Positions 227 to 59,528 of a stretch of 64,000 nucleotides of DNA are shown one piece after another; the stretch's first letter is position 1, and each line of letters starts with the position of its first letter. Position numbers and translations under genes: made by a program. The stretch is taken from assembly GCF_002019735.1 (NCBI RefSeq), contig NZ_KV917378.1, forward strand, positions 2,506,869 through 2,570,868, given 5' to 3'. Under the pieces are notes generated by a model that ran no database searches, was not told the DNA's origin, and worked only from the letters and a program-made list of their open reading frames with translations. Source of the DNA: Salipaludibacillus agaradhaerens (GTDB lineage: Bacteria; Bacillota; Bacilli; Bacillales; Salisediminibacteriaceae).

Positions 227-605
227 ATATGAATGCTCCTTTCATAAGTTTTTCACTTACTATAACGTAAATGCTAATAACAGAGGCACCCCCTCTTCTC
301 ACACAAAACGCCCCACGTAAGTTGATTAATTCCGTGATAGAAGCTGAAAGTCCTTCACGTTCTTCACCAATGTATACCTTTATGTTAGAAGTATTCCAGC
401 CTATTTTTCCTGCCAACACTGTGTATTCATCGTACTCTCTATAAAATACCCCGTTACTCATTGAATTTGGTAATCGTTCGCTCGATGATTCCTGCATTTC
501 CCACTCAAACCATGACTTTGATAGCGTCATGGCTCCAAGGTGGTCAAAACCCCTTTCAAAAATCACAATGGCAGACGATCCTTCATCTGACATTTTAATC
601 TCCAC
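216..605 (-). CDS. B-type protein, distal part (B4b), possibly frameshifted
   Basis: A 129-residue frame opens at a GTG at 605 that overlaps the end of the upstream frame by 11 bases and has only a weak ribosome binding site. The segment AIVIFERGFDHLGAM...WFEWEM matches the central motif of the B proteins downstream of the WXG100 cassette (ALAFYERGDWHAGIMEF...WFGWE), and the rest is collinear with their C-terminal half. No signal or membrane segment is present here, although the other B proteins all begin with one. I therefore think it is the C-terminal part of a B protein whose N-terminus is in the frame 595-861, either split by a frameshift or decoded as two coupled proteins. Confidence 0.5.
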   Translation of the reverse strand: MEIKMSDEGSSAIVIFERGFDHLGAMTLSKSWFEWEMQESSSERLPNSMSNGVFYREYDEYTVLAGKIGWNTSNIKVYIGEEREGLSASITELINLRGAFCVRRGGASVISIYVIVSEKLMKGAFIYEG

Positions 606-861
606 TATTCTTTTCCATTTCTGCTATACCAAACATTCTCAGGTTCATGTTGCCCCATTCATAAAAAACGATGGCATAATCATCTTCAATGAACGCCACA
701 TCGAGTACATTATAGATTGGCTCAGGGTATCTCAATGGTGTCAAGGCATTTTCTTCTAAATAGGCGCGATCGTCTACTGATACTAGGTTAATGATACCGA
801 CAAGTAGGATAATAACAATAATTACACCACTGACCAACGTCATTTTTCTTTTTATTGACAC
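595..861 (-). CDS. B-type protein, membrane-anchor part (B4a)
   Basis: This 88-residue frame starts at a GTG preceded by GAGAGGAG. Residues 7-28 form a hydrophobic segment typical of an uncleaved N-terminal anchor. Residues 50-75 (DVAFIEDDYAIVFYEWG) match the IAHIEIDGKYALAFYERG motif of the other B proteins. The frame then stops, and the neighbouring frame continues with B-like sequence. It follows A4 by 28 bases, keeping the A-then-B order of the locus. Either a frameshifted B gene or a natural split; sequence alone does not decide. Confidence 0.55.
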   Translation of the reverse strand: MSIKRKMTLVSGVIIVIILLVGIINLVSVDDRAYLEENALTPLRYPEPIYNVLDVAFIEDDYAIVFYEWGNMNLRMFGIAEMEKNSGD

Positions 862-14049: not shown

Positions 14050-14075
14050 GACCGCAACATAACACGAAAGGACTG

Positions 14076-14117
14076 ATGGGTGGACAATGGATAACTAAGC
14101 CTATTTTTAAACGTTGA
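14076..14117 (+). CDS. 13-residue leader peptide of vmlR
   Basis: ATG to TGA encodes MGGQWITKPIFKR, preceded by AAAGGA at short spacing, inside the vmlR leader. ABC-F resistance genes of Firmicutes are commonly controlled by a short leader peptide whose stalled ribosome prevents termination. Assigned by position between promoter, antiterminator and terminator; the peptide itself has no diagnostic motif. Confidence 0.6.
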   Translation: MGGQWITKPIFKR

Positions 14118-14145
14118 ATCGCATTATTTCAACTGATAAAAAGTA

Positions 14146-14254
14146 GGATTAGTCTGCCCATTTTTACATGTAACCTATCTAGCCATTCGCTAAGTAGCTT
14201 ATTAAGTGCGGTAATCAATGACTAATCCTTCCAACATAATTGGGAGGATTTTTT
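14146..14254 (+). promoter_or_regulatory. transcription attenuator of vmlR
   Basis: Terminator: AATCCTTCC (14224-14232) pairs with GGGAGGATT (14242-14250), followed by T. Antiterminator: GGATTAGTC (14146-14154) is a perfect complement of GACTAATCC (14220-14228) and would sequester the 5' arm of the terminator. A ribosome stalled on the leader could choose between them. Mutually exclusive pairing is visible in the sequence; inducibility by ribosome-targeting antibiotics is inferred from vmlR biology. Confidence 0.8.
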
Positions 14255-14283
14255 AGTTCTCCCGGAAAAAGGAGAGGATCTGT

Positions 14284-15924
14284 TTGAAAGAATTATTACA
14301 GCTAAACAATGTCAGCTTCCATGTGAAAGATCACGTCCTGTTCCAAAAGGTCAGTACCCATGTGCAAGAAGGCGATATAATCGGACTCATTGGTAAAAAT
14401 GGGTCTGGGAAATCCACGTTTTTACACATGTTAAATGGTGATGTCTCTCCCACTACAGGGGAGATTAAATCAATAGTAAACGCCCTTAATATCGCGATGG
14501 TTGAGCAAGAAACGGTAGCGTATGTAAGTGGTGACATGACAAAAAAGGAGGTCACCTTATTAGAGAGTTGGCGTGTGCCTAACCGGCCCTATACACAATT
14601 AAGCGGGGGTGAAAAAGTGAAAGCACGTCTTGCAAAAGGGCTGGCATTAGACGCTGATATCCTCATGTTGGATGAACCGACGAATCACCTTGATGACGAC
14701 AGTACCGCCTTTTTAATCAATCAACTTAAGGCGTACCGCGGGACGGTTATCCTCGTCTCGCATGACCGTTATTTTTTGGATGCTGTCGCCACCAAAATAT
14801 GGTCACTGGAAAACGAGAGATTGATTGACCATAAAGGAAACTATACGAGCTACATGAAAGCTAGGAAACAAAAGCGTGAATCCCAGCAACGCCAATACGA
14901 TAACCAACAAAAAATGGTGGCACGTATAGAAGGTCAACTAAAGGAACTCACCTCATGGTCGCAAAAGGCCCATGCACAATCGACGAAAAAGGAAGGCTAT
15001 AAAGAGTATTACCGTTTGAAAGCCAAACGGATGGATGCTCAAGTAAAATCTAAGCAAAAGCGCTTGGAAAAAGAATTAGAAAAAATAAATGCGGCTCCTG
15101 TGGAACAAGACGATGACGTTCATTTTGCCATGACCGCCAATACAAAAGTAGGGAAACGGTTTTTAGAAGTAAAACAGCTGACAAAGTCGTTTGACGACCA
15201 CCCTCTTTTTAAAGAGGCCAGCTTTACGATTCAACACGGAGAAAAGGTCGCTCTTATCGGCCCAAATGGCAGTGGAAAAACAACCTTTTTGAACATACTG
15301 ATGGGTCACGAAACGGCTCAAGGGGATGTGTGGCTCTCACCCTCTGCCACGATCGGTTATTTAACACAAGACGTCTTTGACTTGCCACTGGATCAAACGC
15401 CTTCCCACTTGTTTGCACAAGACACTTATAAAGAGCGGGGCAAGGTTCAAAACTTAATGAAACATCTAGGATTTACTGCCTCCCAGTGGACACAACCTAT
15501 TCGACATATGAGTATGGGAGAGCGGGTGAAGTGTAAACTTATGACGTATATTCTCGAAGAAAAAGAGGTGCTCGTGTTAGATGAACCGACAAATCATCTC
15601 GACCTCCCCTCACGAGAACAGTTGGAAGAGACGTTATCACATTATAACGGTACCCTTCTCATCGTCTCACATGATCGCTACTTTATTGAAAAAACGACCA
15701 ACACGAGACTCGTTTTTTCCCAACAGCGGATTCAAAAGCAGCTTACTGACGACAAGCCCTCCCCTGAGCGTGACACGACAGCCGATAAACGGCTAGCTCT
15801 TGAAACAGAACGGCAGGACGTGTTAGGTAAATTGAGTCTGGCAAATCCCACAAGCCAAGACTACGCCGAGCTTGATCGGAAATTTAACGAATTGACGAGA
15901 CAGTTGAAAGAGTTGGATTCCTAA
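14284..15924 (+). CDS. vmlR: ABC-F ribosome-protection ATPase VmlR
   Basis: 546 residues (B. subtilis VmlR is about the same length), TTG start after GGAGAGG. Two ATP-binding domains: GKNGSGKST, LSGGEKVKARLAKGL and DEPTNHLD in the first; GPNGSGKTT, MSMGERVKCKLM and DEPTNHLD in the second. They are joined by a charged helical linker with SWSQKAHAQSTKKEGYKEY, the antibiotic-resistance arm. No membrane segment, as expected for ABC-F. VmlR binds the ribosome and displaces virginiamycin M, lincomycin or tiamulin. Sequence resemblance to VmlR is high along its length. Preceded by a leader attenuator and followed by a strong terminator. Confidence 0.92.
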   Translation: MKELLQLNNVSFHVKDHVLFQKVSTHVQEGDIIGLIGKNGSGKSTFLHMLNGDVSPTTGEIKSIVNALNIAMVEQETVAYVSGDMTKKEVTLLESWRVPNRPYTQLSGGEKVKARLAKGLALDADILMLDEPTNHLDDDSTAFLINQLKAYRGTVILVSHDRYFLDAVATKIWSLENERLIDHKGNYTSYMKARKQKRESQQRQYDNQQKMVARIEGQLKELTSWSQKAHAQSTKKEGYKEYYRLKAKRMDAQVKSKQKRLEKELEKINAAPVEQDDDVHFAMTANTKVGKRFLEVKQLTKSFDDHPLFKEASFTIQHGEKVALIGPNGSGKTTFLNILMGHETAQGDVWLSPSATIGYLTQDVFDLPLDQTPSHLFAQDTYKERGKVQNLMKHLGFTASQWTQPIRHMSMGERVKCKLMTYILEEKEVLVLDEPTNHLDLPSREQLEETLSHYNGTLLIVSHDRYFIEKTTNTRLVFSQQRIQKQLTDDKPSPERDTTADKRLALETERQDVLGKLSLANPTSQDYAELDRKFNELTRQLKELDS

Positions 15925-18883: not shown

Positions 18884-19480
18884 CGCGACACTCACAGTCT
18901 TGCTCTCGCTTGAGTGGCGCTAGTCCAGCAGGTGAGCGACACTCACGGCCTTGTTCTCGCCTGAGTAGCGCTTATTCAGACAGTTCGCGACACTCACAAC
19001 CTTACTCTCAGCTGAGTGGCGCTTATCCAGACAGTTCGCGACACTCACAACCTTGCTCTCAGCTGAGTGGCTCTAATTCAGCCGATTCACGACACTCGCA
19101 GCCTTGCTCTCGCCTGAGTGGCGCTTGTTCAGCCGATTCGCGACACTCGCAGCCTTGCTCTCGCCTGAGTGGCGCTTATTCAGACAGTTCACGACACTCA
19201 CGGCCTTGTTCTCGCCTGAGTGGCTCTAATTCAGCCAGTTCGCGACACTCGCAGCCTTGTTCTCGCCTGAGTGGCGCTTATTCAGACAGTTCACGACACT
19301 CACGGCCTTGTTCTCGCCTGAGTGACCCTTATTCAGCCGGTTCGCGACACTCGCAGTCTTGCTCTCGCCTGAGTGGCTCTAATTCAGCCGATTCACGACA
19401 CTCGCAGCCTTGCTCTCGGCTGAGTGGCGCTTGTTCAGCTGATTCGCGACACTCGCAGCCTTGTTCTCGCCTGAGTGGCC
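18884..19480. repeat. 51-bp palindromic tandem repeat array, 12 units
   Basis: Twelve units each contain GCGACACTC, about 17 bases (GCAGCCTTGCTCTCGCC type), GAGTGGCGC and about 16 bases. The two conserved arms are an imperfect inverted repeat and could form a hairpin in every unit. Because 51 is divisible by three, several frames stay open (for example SRHSQPCSRLSG repeats); there is no plausible start or ribosome binding site, so I do not call a protein. A second array with the same arms but different inner sequence is at 37628-38392. Confidence 0.9.
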
Positions 19481-19676
19481 AGTTTTGTTACTTCCCCGCC
19501 ACTCTTGGCCTTTTTTCTAAAACGAAGATATTAAAAGGTAAATATTTACGCAACCTTAACACGATTAACTTCAATTAAATTTTACCGAGTGGAGGGTAAA
19601 CAAAGCAACCTAGACGACTCGCTTAACACGAACCCACTATATTATCTTTATAATACCTCGTACATATTGGCGATTC

Positions 19677-21371: not shown

Positions 21372-21400
21372 TTGACAAAATGTTAGAATATGTATATACT
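21372..21400 (+). promoter_or_regulatory. sigma-A promoter of the mutS2-like leader
   Basis: Consensus TTGACA (21372-21377), 17 bases, TATACT (21395-21400). The predicted leader to the mutS2-like gene is about 305 bases. Confidence 0.88.
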
Positions 21401-21462
21401 TGGAACAATTACACAACCTTTATGTTGAATGCCTCATAGACGGGGCTGAAGGAGTTTGTTTT

Positions 21463-21486
21463 ATGAGTGTGAGTGTTCTTAACTAG
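21463..21486 (+). CDS. 7-residue leader peptide MSVSVLN
   Basis: AAGGAG eight bases before ATG, then seven codons and TAG. The last three codons (GTTCTTAAC, 21475-21483) form the 5' arm of the large leader stem, so ribosome position on this peptide would decide the fold. Coding this short is supported by the ideal ribosome binding site and the geometry rather than by homology. Confidence 0.7.
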   Translation: MSVSVLN

Positions 21487-21676
21487 TCCATAACCGGATA
21501 TGTACGAATAGTTTAAAACCGTCAACAATGTCGGTTTATTTGCGTTACCTATTCGTACACGTTAAGAACCAAGCAATCGATAAATCGATACAGCACCCGT
21601 CTGTTTTTTTTCAGACTGGGCCTGTTCAACGTAAAGGGCGGCTAAACGCCTCAAGCGACTGCTTGAGGCGTTTTTT
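21475..21676 (+). promoter_or_regulatory. leader-peptide attenuator of the mutS2-like gene
   Basis: Nested pairings: GTTCTTAAC (21475-21483) with GTTAAGAAC (21561-21569); TGTACGAATAG (21501-21511) with CTATTCGTACA (21549-21559); AAACCG (21516-21521) with CGGTTT (21532-21537). A second hairpin surrounds a T-run at 21597-21620. The final terminator is AACGCCTCAAGC / GCTTGAGGCGTT (21645-21672) plus six T, 36 bases before the start codon. This arrangement of uORF, long stem and terminator is that of ribosome-stalling attenuators of antibiotic resistance genes. Confidence 0.8.
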
Positions 21677-21711
21677 GTGTATATTTTTTTTAAGAAGGGA
21701 CGATCGACGTC

Positions 21712-23640
21712 ATGAATCATACATCATTAAAACAACTGGATTATCAACATATTTTAGATACTGTCGCCACATTCGCCCATACTGAGCGAGCTAAAGAAAC
21801 CATTCGCACGAGTGAACCGAAGTTTGTAAGGAAGCATATTGATCAAATGTTAAACGACGTTTGGGAAGCTTACCGCATTATCACGATTAGTTCAAGCATC
21901 CCCATTCACTCACTGGATGACATGTCAGCTTACCTTCAACAGGCAAAGAAAGGATTGTACTTACAACCTAGTCAATTACAACGCGTCCTCTCCTTCCTTG
22001 AGCATTGCCGCAAACTTAACACGTTTATGCGCGATAAAGTGCCTGTAGCGCCAAACGTTGCCAATTATGTGTTATCGATAAACGATATGAGTGATACTGA
22101 AAACGCCATCGCTGGCAGCCTTCGTCACGGTCAAATTGATGATCATGCTTCACCAGAACTGGCAAATATCCGTCGCCACCGTCGGATAAAGCAAGCAGAA
22201 ATAAAAGAGAAAGCAGAAGCAATATGCCGTTCAAAAAAATGGGCTCCGTATCTTCAAGACAGCCTCGTTGTTGAGAAGAACGACAGGTTAACCATTCCGG
22301 TAAAAAAACAATATCGTTCGAAAGTATCCGGCACTATGATTGACACGTCTTCATCTGGCGCTACTATCTTTGTGGAACCAAAAGAATTAGCCACTCTCTA
22401 TGAGCAATTAAATGACTTAACTATGGCGGAAACGTATGAAGTGGAAACGATTCTTTATACGTTAACTGCCAGCATATTAGACATAGAAAGCGACTTGCAT
22501 ATGGCCATGGACATTATGCATCACTATGACGTCCTCTTCGCCAAAGCGAAATATGGTCAATCCATCAACGCCGTTATTCCGAAGCTTAATGAAGACTACA
22601 TGATCCACCTTGATGCAGCACGCCATCCACTACTAGGAGAGCAAGCTGTCCCATTGTCCCTTAAACTAGGCATACGAGACCGTGCACTGGTGATTACCGG
22701 TCCAAATACAGGGGGAAAAACGGTGACGTTAAAGACTATCGGACTGCTTACGCTTATGGCACAAACGGGGCTGATGGTTCCGGCTGGCCCCAACACATCG
22801 CTTCACGTCTTTCAAAAACTATTTGTCGACATTGGTGACGGTCAAAGCATTGAACAAAATTTAAGTACCTTTAGTTCTCGCCTAACGAATATTATTGACA
22901 TTTTGGAAATAACTGATGATAAAACATTAGTCCTTATTGATGAACTAGGCTCAGGCACCGATCCGAACGAAGGCATGGCTCTCGCCCATATTATTCTTGA
23001 ACAATTATATGCTAAAGGGGCGACGATTGTAGCCACGACTCACTATCGCGAGTTAAAATCATTGGCACAGACACACGATGGATTTCTAAATGGCTCAATG
23101 ACCTTTGATGTGGACACATTGCAGCCCACTTATCGGCTTTTATTAGGGGAGACAGGGAATAGTCAGGCATTCGATATCGCCTTCAAACTAGGTCTTCACC
23201 CAACACTCATTCACCGGGCTCAACAATTATGCGGAAATCTGGTCGATGAGACATCCTATTCCATAGCAGACATCGACCAAACGCAAAAAAGGCGTTATGA
23301 CAAACAACTGGCCACAACGAACTATGTGAGGACACAACAGAAAAAGAAAAAAACAGCTATCCCTTTATTTAATCAGGGAGACAATGTCACAGTATCCCCC
23401 CATCAAGAAGTAGGCATTGTTTATAAAGGTCCTGATGAGAAAGGAGACTACATCGTTCAAATTAAAGGGGAAAAACACCGCATTAACCATAAGCGGCTGA
23501 CCCTTCACATTCCAGCAAGTGAGCTATACCCACCAGACTATGACTTCGATATTATTTTTAAATCGGTGGATTATCGCAAAACAAAACACCTGCTTGAACG
23601 AAAACACGTAGATGGCCTCGTCTTAGACGACGAAGAGTAA
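21712..23640 (+). CDS. MutS2-like ATPase lacking the Smr domain
   Basis: 642 residues against about 785 for MutS2. The core/lever region with SSSGATIFVEPKEL (about 212-226) matches MutS2; the ATPase has ITGPNTGGKTVTLKT (328-342), LVLIDELGSGTDP (406-418) and ATTHYRELKSL (445-451). A KOW-like segment (about 553-595, FNQGDNVTV...GIVYKG) follows, and the protein ends near residue 642 where MutS2 continues into the Smr nuclease domain. MutS2 in B. subtilis recognises collided ribosomes and splits them. This paralogue keeps ATPase and KOW, loses Smr, and is controlled by a translation-sensing leader, so a drug-induced ribosome-rescue role is my inference. Ends before a strong terminator. Confidence 0.85.
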   Translation: MNHTSLKQLDYQHILDTVATFAHTERAKETIRTSEPKFVRKHIDQMLNDVWEAYRIITISSSIPIHSLDDMSAYLQQAKKGLYLQPSQLQRVLSFLEHCRKLNTFMRDKVPVAPNVANYVLSINDMSDTENAIAGSLRHGQIDDHASPELANIRRHRRIKQAEIKEKAEAICRSKKWAPYLQDSLVVEKNDRLTIPVKKQYRSKVSGTMIDTSSSGATIFVEPKELATLYEQLNDLTMAETYEVETILYTLTASILDIESDLHMAMDIMHHYDVLFAKAKYGQSINAVIPKLNEDYMIHLDAARHPLLGEQAVPLSLKLGIRDRALVITGPNTGGKTVTLKTIGLLTLMAQTGLMVPAGPNTSLHVFQKLFVDIGDGQSIEQNLSTFSSRLTNIIDILEITDDKTLVLIDELGSGTDPNEGMALAHIILEQLYAKGATIVATTHYRELKSLAQTHDGFLNGSMTFDVDTLQPTYRLLLGETGNSQAFDIAFKLGLHPTLIHRAQQLCGNLVDETSYSIADIDQTQKRRYDKQLATTNYVRTQQKKKKTAIPLFNQGDNVTVSPHQEVGIVYKGPDEKGDYIVQIKGEKHRINHKRLTLHIPASELYPPDYDFDIIFKSVDYRKTKHLLERKHVDGLVLDDEE

Positions 23641-23695: not shown

Positions 23696-23787
23696 AAATC
23701 ATGCACTCATAAAGAGTGCGACAAAGCATCTATCAAGACCGAACTTTAATTACTTATTTCAATCCACGCACTCATAAAGAGTGCGAC
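23691..23787 (-). CRISPR. orphan type I-C mini-array: two repeats, one spacer
   Basis: Repeat 2 (23756-23787, 32 nt) read on the minus strand starts GTCGCACTCTTTATGAGTGC and ends GTGGATTGAAAT, the type I-C repeat of Bacillus (B. halodurans type) with small changes. A spacer of 33 nt (23723-23755) separates it from repeat 1 (23691-23722), whose inner 20 bases are identical and whose distal part is degenerate, as usual for the terminal repeat of an array. No cas gene is in the window. It is therefore a relic or an array served by Cas proteins encoded elsewhere. Confidence 0.85.
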
Positions 23788-54604: not shown

Positions 54605-54672
54605 TAGTCACAGTTAATCACATGGATTATGAGCACACTTAAAAAAAGCACACCTATCCTACTTAATCCTTC

Positions 54673-54827
54673 CTCCATTCGTAGAGCTTTAGCACTGTGC
54701 GGCATAGGACTATGTCCAGCTACATTAAAAACCACCTTATGTCGATAGTTTCTGTTGACCCATTGGCGTCTTTGGACATTTTTGGGCAGCAGCGTATCTC
54801 CTGCACAGGAGCCTCACCTAACGAGGA
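54673..54827 (-). promoter_or_regulatory. M-box (ykoK) magnesium riboswitch
   Basis: Minus strand CTCGTTAGGTGAGGCTCCTG, ACGCTGCTGCCCAAAAATGT, CAAAGACGCCAATGGGTCAA, ATAAGGTGGTTTTTAATG and CCTATGCC...GTGCTAAAGCTCTACG match the M-box consensus in order and spacing. High Mg2+ folds it to favour the terminator at 54574. It controls mgtC-mgtE. Confidence 0.95.
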
Positions 54828-54921
54828 TTATTAAATTAATTTCACAATGAACAGAGTACATCATGAGCAAATATCTGTCAACATTTTTTCATTTTTTTAC
54901 AATAAACATTATTGCTATTTC

Positions 54922-56852: not shown

Positions 56853-56863
56853 AAAGTAATAAA

Positions 56864-56948
56864 TCGGCGATGGAGATCCGCCATTAACCGCTCAATTTTG
56901 AGATAATGACTCCTGCTAAGTAACCCTTAGCAGGAGTCTATTTTTTTT
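56864..56948 (+). promoter_or_regulatory. fluoride (crcB) riboswitch
   Basis: GGCGATGGAGATCCGCCATTAACCGC ... ATAATGACTCCTGCTAAG ... CTTAGCAGGAGTC plus eight T. The GGCGAUGG...CCGCC stem and UAAUGACUCCU...AGGAGUCUAUUUUUU end are the fluoride riboswitch consensus, with the terminator as expression platform. Confidence 0.96.
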
Positions 56949-58985: not shown

Positions 58986-59397
58986 ATCACAACTAACCGT
59001 CTTTAACCTCAGGCACAAAATAGAGATGAGAACGAAAGCCCCACTAATTATCACCCTCATACTAAAGAAAATTTATTCCAATTTATACGTGCTGTTGTAT
59101 TTTAAACATCATGATGAAATTGCCTCACTCAGTTACTACCAGATGTATGATGTCTTAATATGGCGCCTTGCCTGTTCAAGGTTCAGCGATATGTCAAAGC
59201 AAGTCTTACCACAGGCGCTCTCACCGTCAAAATAACCTCTAGCTTCCTGCCCACTCGCGTTGAAAGGACGATTCAAAGAAAGTCGTGCCATTTAAAGCGT
59301 TATGAGGATAACTCAATGTTTACTTTTAACTTTTTTAAAACCCTTTCATTTTTATGGAAGTTGATGTATTCTTGAAACAAATTCAATTGAAATAACT

Positions 59398-59489
59398 AGG
59401 GGAGTCCAATGAGTTGGGCTGAGACAGAAACGCGTTAAAGTTTCTTGACCCTTTGGACCTGATCTGGATCATACCAGCGTGGGGAAGTT
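59398..59489 (+). promoter_or_regulatory. TPP (THI-box) riboswitch
   Basis: GGGGAGTCCAATGAGTTGGGCTGAGA ... CCCTTTGGACCTGATCTGGATCATACCAGCGTGGGGAAGTTAG matches the thiamine pyrophosphate riboswitch core (CUGAGA, ACCUGAUCUGGAUAAUACCAGCGUAGGGAA). Upstream of thiC on the same strand. Confidence 0.97.
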
Positions 59490-59528
59490 AGAAAGCTCAT
59501 CTTTTTTTATGAATTAACTTCTACATAT

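Follow-up and report, generated by a model that had tools for sequence, protein, structure and literature searches.

The DNA analysed here, called the window throughout, is a stretch of 64,000 nucleotides (nt) from Salipaludibacillus agaradhaerens (contig NZ_KV917378.1, positions 2,506,869 to 2,570,868; the host genome has 4.32 Mb in a single contig). It carries an intact gene for a MutS2-like ATPase without the Smr domain, preceded by a leader in which a short upstream open reading frame (uORF) is followed by an intrinsic terminator (Table 1). An earlier note, made from the letters alone, had pointed out this gene together with a promoter, a Shine-Dalgarno sequence, the uORF, a stem and the terminator, and had proposed a drug-inducible ribosome rescue or resistance factor. 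All of these parts were found in place; the observation is confirmed, and its interpretation is partly supported by the results below. In the following, L and G numbers denote loci and genomes, respectively, group A is the clade of the window protein, and group B is a second Smr-less MutS2 clade.

Table 1. Parts of the leader, the gene and its protein in the window; P1 is the anti-antiterminator stem.
Feature	Position	Strand	Remarks
Sigma-70 promoter	21372..21400	+	TTGACA (21372-21377), 17-nt spacer, TATACT (21395-21400); read in sequence
Shine-Dalgarno of uORF	21449..21454	+	AAGGAG; conserved in leader alignment
uORF MSVSVLN	21463..21486	+	ATG AGT GTG AGT GTT CTT AAC TAG; 7 codons and stop
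P1 5' arm	21475..21483	+	last three sense codons of the uORF, GTT CTT AAC
Inner 11-bp helix, 5' side	21501..21511	+	partner 21549-21559; from fold
Pause-type hairpin	21516..21541	+	AAACCG...CGGTTT, then TTATTT (NusG TTNTTT pause signature)
P1 3' arm	21561..21569	+	GTTAAGAAC; perfect 9 bp
Antiterminator segment	21570..21579	+	CAAGCAATCG; pairs with terminator top 21656-21665
Intrinsic terminator	21644..21676	+	stem AAACGCCTCAAGC/GCTTGAGGCGTTT, loop GACT, U tract
Ribosome binding site of main gene	21692..21699	+	
Smr-less MutS2-family ATPase (group A)	21712..23640	+	642 residues; intact open reading frame
Walker A	residues 330-337		GPNTGGKT
Walker B			LVLIDELGSGTDP
KOW-like segment	residues about 555-600		weak match to canonical KOW
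Conserved C-terminal tail	residues about 604-616		ELYPxDYDFDIIF; occupies the place of Smr

The window protein scored 595 bits against the mutS2 model TIGR01069 (cut-off 400; profile positions 2-551 of 790), and the solved structures that match it best are the MutS2 chains 7qv3 and 8qpp, with residues 5-546 aligned. In Pfam, MutS_V was the only domain above its cut-off, and the Smr domain expected of a MutS2 was absent. The C-terminal 100 residues gave neither Smr nor MSSS (the MutS2-associated SH3 domain), and a phmmer search with them returned a single match at E 1.4, which is not meaningful. As a positive control, the canonical MutS2 encoded in the same genome, a 792-residue frame with 41% identity to the window protein, was positive for Smr (95 bits) and MSSS (54 bits) in its C-terminal region in this Pfam scan; another MutS-like gene, an 883-residue frame, lies elsewhere in that genome (G000:C1:322321). 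The long coiled coil of MutS2 is also missing from the window protein. The ATPase motifs are invariant across 46 aligned group A sequences. As for the KOW-like segment claimed in the earlier note, hhalign of group A against the canonical KOW domain gave a weak match (E 5e-4, probability 31%), and Pfam did not detect MSSS. Two residues, Q583 and K588, are invariant in the 46 sequences and align to Q668 and K673 of Bacillus subtilis MutS2, which are two of the four uS10-loop residues changed in the KOW mutant of that protein (PMC10897456). Membership in two related families was rejected, namely KamC (NF052383; 214 bits against a cut-off of 300, and a separate clade in the tree described below) and MutS1 (TIGR01070; 122 bits against a cut-off of 642). 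Judged by its sequence, the protein has retained core, clamp and ATPase of MutS2; a KOW-like domain is probably retained as well.

The absence of Smr is a property of a clade, and loss in this strain only was rejected. Relatives of the window protein were collected by a scan of genome contigs, from which the best 80 of 153 were retained and were thus picked for completeness; these orthologues are 635-647 residues long, and among the 46 scanned group A members MutS_V was found in every one and Smr in none. In a quick tree of 48 proteins without bootstrap (25 rows for group A including the window, seven for group B, seven for canonical MutS2 and eight for KamC), each of the four groups stands on one side of a branch with a support of 98-100 in the Shimodaira-Hasegawa-like approximate likelihood ratio test (99-100 for group A, group B and canonical MutS2), and the window protein falls outside the canonical MutS2 clade; the branching order among group A, group B and canonical MutS2 is not resolved. 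Group B proteins show 35-38% identity to the window protein and share its C-terminus with an hhalign probability of 99.5; this shared part consists of the KOW-like segment and, behind it, the tail around ELYPxxYDxDxxF.

The leader in the window folds with a z-score of -8.3, and none of 200 shuffles was equally stable; in this fold, roughly the first 40 nt are additionally paired with later parts of the leader. The stem had been described as a three-part one with its 5' arm in the last uORF codons. The placement of the 5' arm held, and the actual form is an outer helix of 9 bp with other hairpins inside it; the pause-type hairpin with TTATTT and the antiterminator segment are additions to that description. 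The arrangement is conserved: in the window and in 79 of 80 orthologous loci, the gene follows a uORF whose last residues are V/I-L-N (V-S-N in L007), and in the eightieth (L051) the available upstream sequence, 244 nt, is too short for a judgement. Seven codons is the uORF length in 79 of 80 sequences, with six in L046, and the last nine sense nucleotides pair at all nine positions with the downstream arm (G-U allowed) in 78 of 80. P1 itself is nearly invariant, with double changes at two of its nine pairs in one sequence each (44 aligned). A promoter-like site at most 130 nt upstream of the uORF, with a score of at least 10 (number of matching hexamer positions, at most 12, with 0.5 added if the spacer is 17 nt), is present in 87.5% of the 80 sequences compared with 5% of shuffles. 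In 59 of 80 sequences, TTNTTT stands 12-45 nt ahead of the 3' arm (18% of shuffles), and the hairpin just 5' of it in those 59 has a mean energy of -7.5 kcal/mol, compared with -3.4 kcal/mol for shuffles. Our script assigned a terminator hairpin to the interval from the 3' arm to the gene in all 80 sequences, and many loci have further terminator-like hairpins.

Specificity for the gene was also examined. Of the 81 target genes, 65 had 600 nt upstream, and 58 of these 65 are preceded by a uORF whose 9-nt arm is perfect, compared with 12 of 555 other open reading frames of the same loci. Furthermore, the flank directly 3' of the arm varies by clade (AATGG, ACGTT, AAGCA, CAAGC or AGGCAT), and the top of the terminator varies along with it: over 52 distinct combinations, own flank-terminator duplexes averaged -9.3 kcal/mol compared with -6.8 kcal/mol (standard deviation 0.3) for swapped ones, a difference attained in none of 5000 permutations. 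When the flanks were grouped into 13 classes, the values were -8.9 kcal/mol and -6.4 kcal/mol (standard deviation 0.5), with none of 20000 permutations attaining this. Minimum free energy folds were then computed for transcripts cut with the polymerase 7 nt past the terminator loop, with the ribosome footprint on the uORF masked or not. Masking raised the mean number of antiterminator pairs from 0.6 to 7.5 and lowered that of terminator pairs from 5.9 to 2.5 (80 sequences), and at least four antiterminator pairs were gained in 49 of the 80. An origin of the stem and terminator by chance was rejected on the basis of the fold z-score, the antiterminator permutations and the 58 of 65 against 12 of 555 for the uORF-arm pair. 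Taken as a prediction from sequence, the regulatory part of the reading is well supported.

To follow the leader through whole genomes, we used R1, a covariance model reaching from the uORF to the 3' arm and built from 44 sequences of MutS2-like leaders only. Within the family sample, R1 matched in 12 of 35 genomes; group A was present in 11 of the 35, all 11 with a match, and the gene of one (G029) is split over two frames. The twelfth genome (G020) has a weak match of 43.8 bits with no relative behind it. Across the order, 134 of 397 genomes gave 137 matches, and a group A protein (at least 41% identity) was found in 129 of 397. Same-strand R1 matches lie 142-741 nt upstream (median 224) of 128 of these 129 genes; conservation of the leader in orthologues, on which the earlier reading depended, therefore holds in this sample. 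An exact two-arm pattern was found in 112 of 397 genomes (reversed control, 0); it misses the window itself, the uORF of which ends in TAG. Near canonical MutS2, MutS1 and KamC genes (13 loci, some with little upstream DNA), R1 gave nothing better than E 2.5.

Nine R1 matches in the order have no group A match behind them: three precede frame-broken copies (G338, G137, G044), one is an antisense duplicate (G216), two precede a methyltransferase gene (G035, G081), two represent the second leader of their genome and have a GNAT acetyltransferase gene behind them (G208, G233), and one (G041) precedes a decayed remnant of BpsA, the branched-chain polyamine synthase (78 residues at 62% identity; L128:1697-1930). 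Damage is also seen among the 129 group A genes, with a stop in G134 and G339 and partial genes in G339 and G151. In L096, L129, L132, L133 and L143, MutS2-like genes behind leaders are in separate frames or shortened, for which sequencing errors are possible. These data suggest that the MutS2-like gene behind the leader is accessory and often lost. A conserved operon partner was not found, the commonest neighbour family occurring in 19 of 81 loci (some with short flanks); an exception is L224, where the leader is followed by a MutS2-like gene and then BpsA. Plasmid mobility was rejected, since relatives (E up to 1e-100) were found in only 4 of 72,556 plasmid records, all below 60% identity.

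In the class and phylum samples, the leader stands before other genes as well. In the class sample, 29 of 180 genomes gave 31 R1 matches, of which 16 loci were fetched; 13 more lie just upstream of MutS2-family matches by their coordinates, and the remaining two are in G644 and G694. Behind the 16 fetched leaders are seven MutS2-like genes (35-38% identity to the window protein, outside the tree; four of four scanned without Smr), five BpsA-type genes (one at 140 bits in Pfam and four 60-66% identical to that one) and four tet(M) genes (one at 1514 bits in NCBIfam, cut-off 1420, and the others 97-100% identical). In the phylum sample, matches in 9 of 149 genomes comprised four MutS2-like genes (three of these four genomes overlap the class set), four of the Tet(M) family (99.8% or 64% identical across some 450 residues) and one other (G424). 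The tetracycline ribosomal protection genes concerned are at L220-L223 and L236 (Tet(M)) and at L237, L238 and L240 (the 64% identical relatives). Because R1, built from MutS2-like leaders, finds Tet(M)-family leaders, there is strong support for the earlier proposal that this leader has the form of those on drug-resistance genes.

The Tet(M) leader at L220 illustrates the likeness: the end of its uORF, MRQGILK, forms nine of nine pairs and five further pairs with the downstream arm, the flank is complementary to the terminator top, and a strong terminator stands before the gene. This 7-codon uORF is present in all four Tet(M) leaders inspected (L220-L223) and lies upstream of a 28-codon frame further downstream in the leader, which we take, by eye, to be orf12. 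The tetM leader peptide is named as orf12 in the literature, and tetracycline or other inhibitors of translation are described as relieving the attenuation in Tn916 in part (PMC9154091). A literature search for 'MRQGILK' found no paper. These findings suggest that the tet(M) attenuator includes a 7-codon uORF upstream of the usually named orf12.

Further carriers were noted at individual loci. BpsA-type genes follow the leader at L225, L227, L228, L229 and L230, with uORFs ending in VLN, and at L224 BpsA comes after the MutS2-like gene; the presence of BpsA under this leader may point to a response to ribosome stress through polyamines. The leader also precedes a class I S-adenosylmethionine-dependent methyltransferase gene (L130, L131) and a GNAT acetyltransferase gene (L134:8617-9445, L135), the latter as a second copy in the genome; by eye, three of these four loci have the uORF MKVVVLN, and L135 departs from it.

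Group B genes have uORF leaders of their own. A 7-codon uORF (MSAVGSK, MSAVGTK, MSGVVSK, MSVVGIN or MSIAGVN) was found in 22 of 22 group B upstream regions; the script required seven codons ending in K or N, so that length and end are partly given by construction, while the shared codons are not. A terminator-like hairpin (script threshold) follows in 21 of 22, and R1 scored 16.5-26 bits in five of seven group B loci and nothing in two. In ten of the 22 leaders (L137, L139, L140, L191, L193, L194, L198, L199, L202 and L205), the uORF arm occurs a second time, as an exact GTAGGTATCT, some 50 nt ahead of the main start; this repeat of the arm could add translation control.

The reading that we consider rather probable is that ribosomes stalled on the uORF by translation inhibitors allow readthrough into the gene for a Smr-free MutS2-family ATPase, which then acts on inhibited or collided ribosomes. 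Without stress, ribosomes would finish the uORF fast and the 5' arm of P1 would pair with the 3' arm, leaving the antiterminator masked or unused, so that transcription would end at the terminator or terminators. RNA polymerase would probably pause at the hairpin with TTNTTT, giving a ribosome time to load. A ribosome stalled by an inhibitor would cover the 5' arm, and the freed 3' arm with its flank could pair with the terminator loop and upper stem, letting the polymerase read into the gene. The protein would most likely bind inhibited or collided ribosomes and split or clear them with ATP, and the outcome would be tolerance to one or more ribosome-targeting drugs. Likely inducers may be compounds that cause early ribosome stalling and require little of the sequence, because codons 2-4 vary and no macrolide +x+ motif was seen, or, by analogy with Tet(M), tetracyclines. 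Conservation, covariation, intact ATPase motifs, the clade structure and a leader shared with Tet(M)-family genes argue for this reading. We infer pausing, stalling and antitermination in vivo, as well as ribosome binding, the drug range and resistance; the proposed function, splitting or clearing ribosomes, is likewise drawn from the family and its regulation. In B. subtilis, MutS2 splits stalled ribosomes without mRNA cleavage, its Walker B mutant is erythromycin-sensitive, and the KOW and SMR mutants are only modestly so (PMC10897456). Action without a nuclease, which the earlier note had proposed, is therefore less distinctive than supposed.

Several observations weigh against this reading. 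On the protein side, MutS2 is recruited to collisions by two domains, of which one, Smr, is missing here, and the match to KOW is weak; group A has not retained I671 and L672 of the uS10 loop, and Q583 is, by eye, not retained in the divergent member L181. Our confidence is slightly lowered because the Pfam SH3 model MSSS was not detected. On the leader side, one group A gene (G224, 44%) has no leader match at threshold, with only 19.7 bits 0.3 kb upstream; several gene copies behind leaders are broken, and 21 of 80 sequences have no TTNTTT. The antiterminator test keeps the kinship between flank classes, and the script may have picked the upstream one where there were two terminators. The own terminator class ranked first in only 4 of the 13 flank classes and first to third in 10, with the others sixth, eleventh and twelfth. 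In the masked folds, the fall of P1 pairs from 8.8 to 0 is by construction, and 31 of 80 sequences gained fewer than four antiterminator pairs with the terminator chosen. A complete terminator would usually win at equilibrium, and the switch would therefore have to be kinetic.

Three other explanations were weighed against this reading. The protein might not split ribosomes at all and instead protect them or dislodge the drug through the MutS2 clamp, in the manner of ABC-F proteins or Tet(M). It fits this idea that target-protection genes, Tet(M) and its 64% identical relatives, have the leader too, and a protein with neither the coiled coil nor Smr may work by another mechanism than MutS2; however, the MutS2 core and ATPase are kept at about 40% identity to canonical MutS2, and we regard it as unlikely. 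Alternatively, the switch may be real but the protein an ATPase for DNA structures or recombination, according to the older view of MutS2, which has been described as an anti-recombination protein (PMC3200294), and be induced by translation stress within a general response. The weak KOW match would suit such a role, as would the occurrence of the leader on genes without a direct ribosome link (BpsA, the methyltransferase and the GNAT protein). In contrast, the protein has no Smr, the domain linked to cleavage of nucleic acids, the target of B. subtilis MutS2 is the ribosome (PMC10897456), and Tet(M), the carrier by which the leader is best known, is a ribosome factor; this explanation is quite unlikely.

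The attenuator could also sense a shortage of charged tRNA for Val, Leu or Asn, as amino-acid leaders do, rather than a drug: these codons, the last ones ahead of the stop, hardly vary within group A, and any slow ribosome would trigger the switch. Their constancy is, however, explained by pairing, because the same codons form the 5' arm, and in L007 arm and amino acid changed together (GTTTCTAAC with GTTAGGAAC). Codons 2-4 vary between clades, runs of a single codon are absent, the uORFs of group B have SK, TK, IN or VN at their end, and that of Tet(M) is MRQGILK. We therefore consider tRNA sensing highly unlikely, and the stalling of ribosomes by translation inhibitors remains our preferred reading.

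How this system compares with known ones depends on the part considered. To B. subtilis MutS2 the window protein can be aligned over about 540 residues of core/lever, clamp and ABC ATPase, with intact motifs and perhaps a KOW-like segment behind them, and it has about 40% identity to the canonical MutS2 of its own family; it differs in having no Smr, no long coiled coil, another conserved tail and a separate clade beside MutS2 in the genome, and its gene is under a uORF attenuator, whereas R1 gave nothing better than E 2.5 in the 13 loci of canonical MutS2, MutS1 and KamC. KamC, a lysine 5,6-aminomutase reactivase, is likewise a MutS-type ATPase, of about 550 residues, and matches the same profile region, but the window protein falls below the KamC cut-off and in another clade. 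Plant MutS2A is, like the window protein, a Smr-less MutS2 paralogue beside a full one (MutS2B); it differs in being plastid-targeted and derived from an ancient duplication in green plants, and the excerpt of its description mentions no uORF leader (PMC12292046). The precedent for an attenuator-controlled splitting factor is HflXr (lmo0762) of Listeria (PMC6310831), and uORF leaders (uORFC-6-1/hflX) are known on hflX in Bacillales (PMC8632094). These correspond to the reading proposed here, a resistance copy of a splitting factor under uORF-dependent transcription attenuation, whereas the protein is an HflX homologue and its 14-residue RLR uORF is unrelated (PMC6310831, PMC8632094). The Tet(M)/Tn916 leader, found by R1 itself, has the paired end of a 7-codon uORF and the complementary flank, but its effector is an EF-G-like GTPase. 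The leaders of vmlR and other ABC-F genes (MIN, MRI and MYLIFM uORFs) also have a uORF in a stem and an intrinsic terminator, and that of vmlR an antiterminator and a NusG TTNTTT pause (PMC9226507, PMC10201436, PMC10314930); for vmlR, NusG pausing at TTATTT after a hairpin has been shown (PMC9226507). They differ in having 3- or 6-codon uORFs and ABC-F effectors, and the likeness noted here is one of architecture. A search of the full-text literature by title and start of abstract, with subscription papers and preprints outside its coverage, found, among the papers listed, no account of a bacterial Smr-less MutS2 clade or of a uORF leader on one. Plant MutS2A and the uORF leaders on Bacillales hflX were thus already known, and what is new, as far as searched, is a Smr-less MutS2 clade under a uORF leader in bacteria.

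Other features of the window were recorded as well. A gene for an ABC-F protein of the ribosomal-protection type (14284-15924, +; NF000355, 476 bits, cut-off 380) lies directly behind a match to Rfam RF02452, 'ncr1575 sRNA' (14054-14255), and within that region is a 3-codon uORF, ATG GAT AAC TAA (MDN; 14087-14098). Because MDN equals a variant of the VmlR leader named in PMC9226507, the RF02452 'sRNA' family may be an attenuator leader of ABC-F genes. Just after the MutS2-like gene are two CRISPR-like repeat copies (32 nt at 23756-23787 and a 20-nt core at 23703-23722), with no further copies in the window. The riboswitches are an M-box (54666-54832, -), a fluoride (56857-56922, +) and a thiamine pyrophosphate riboswitch (59388-59502, +). 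A 222-codon open frame (18910-19578, +) is built of SRHSQPCSRLSG-type repeats and looks like a DNA repeat, not a gene.

Overall, we see about an even chance that Smr-less MutS2 proteins form at least two clades in Bacilli that are dedicated, drug-inducible ribosome-rescue or resistance factors, under a portable family of 7-codon-uORF attenuators shared with Tet(M)-type and other stress genes (BpsA, methyltransferase and GNAT). To our knowledge, ribosome splitting as a resistance mechanism rests on HflXr. If the reading is true, a second, unrelated family of splitting ATPases under resistance-type control, present in 129 of the 397 order genomes, would widen this class, Smr-free MutS2 copies would gain a role, and splitting of the MutS2 type would be a new class of inducible antibiotic tolerance. 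R1 links MutS2-like, Tet(M)-type and BpsA genes, and searches guided by the leader could reveal further ribosome-stress genes.

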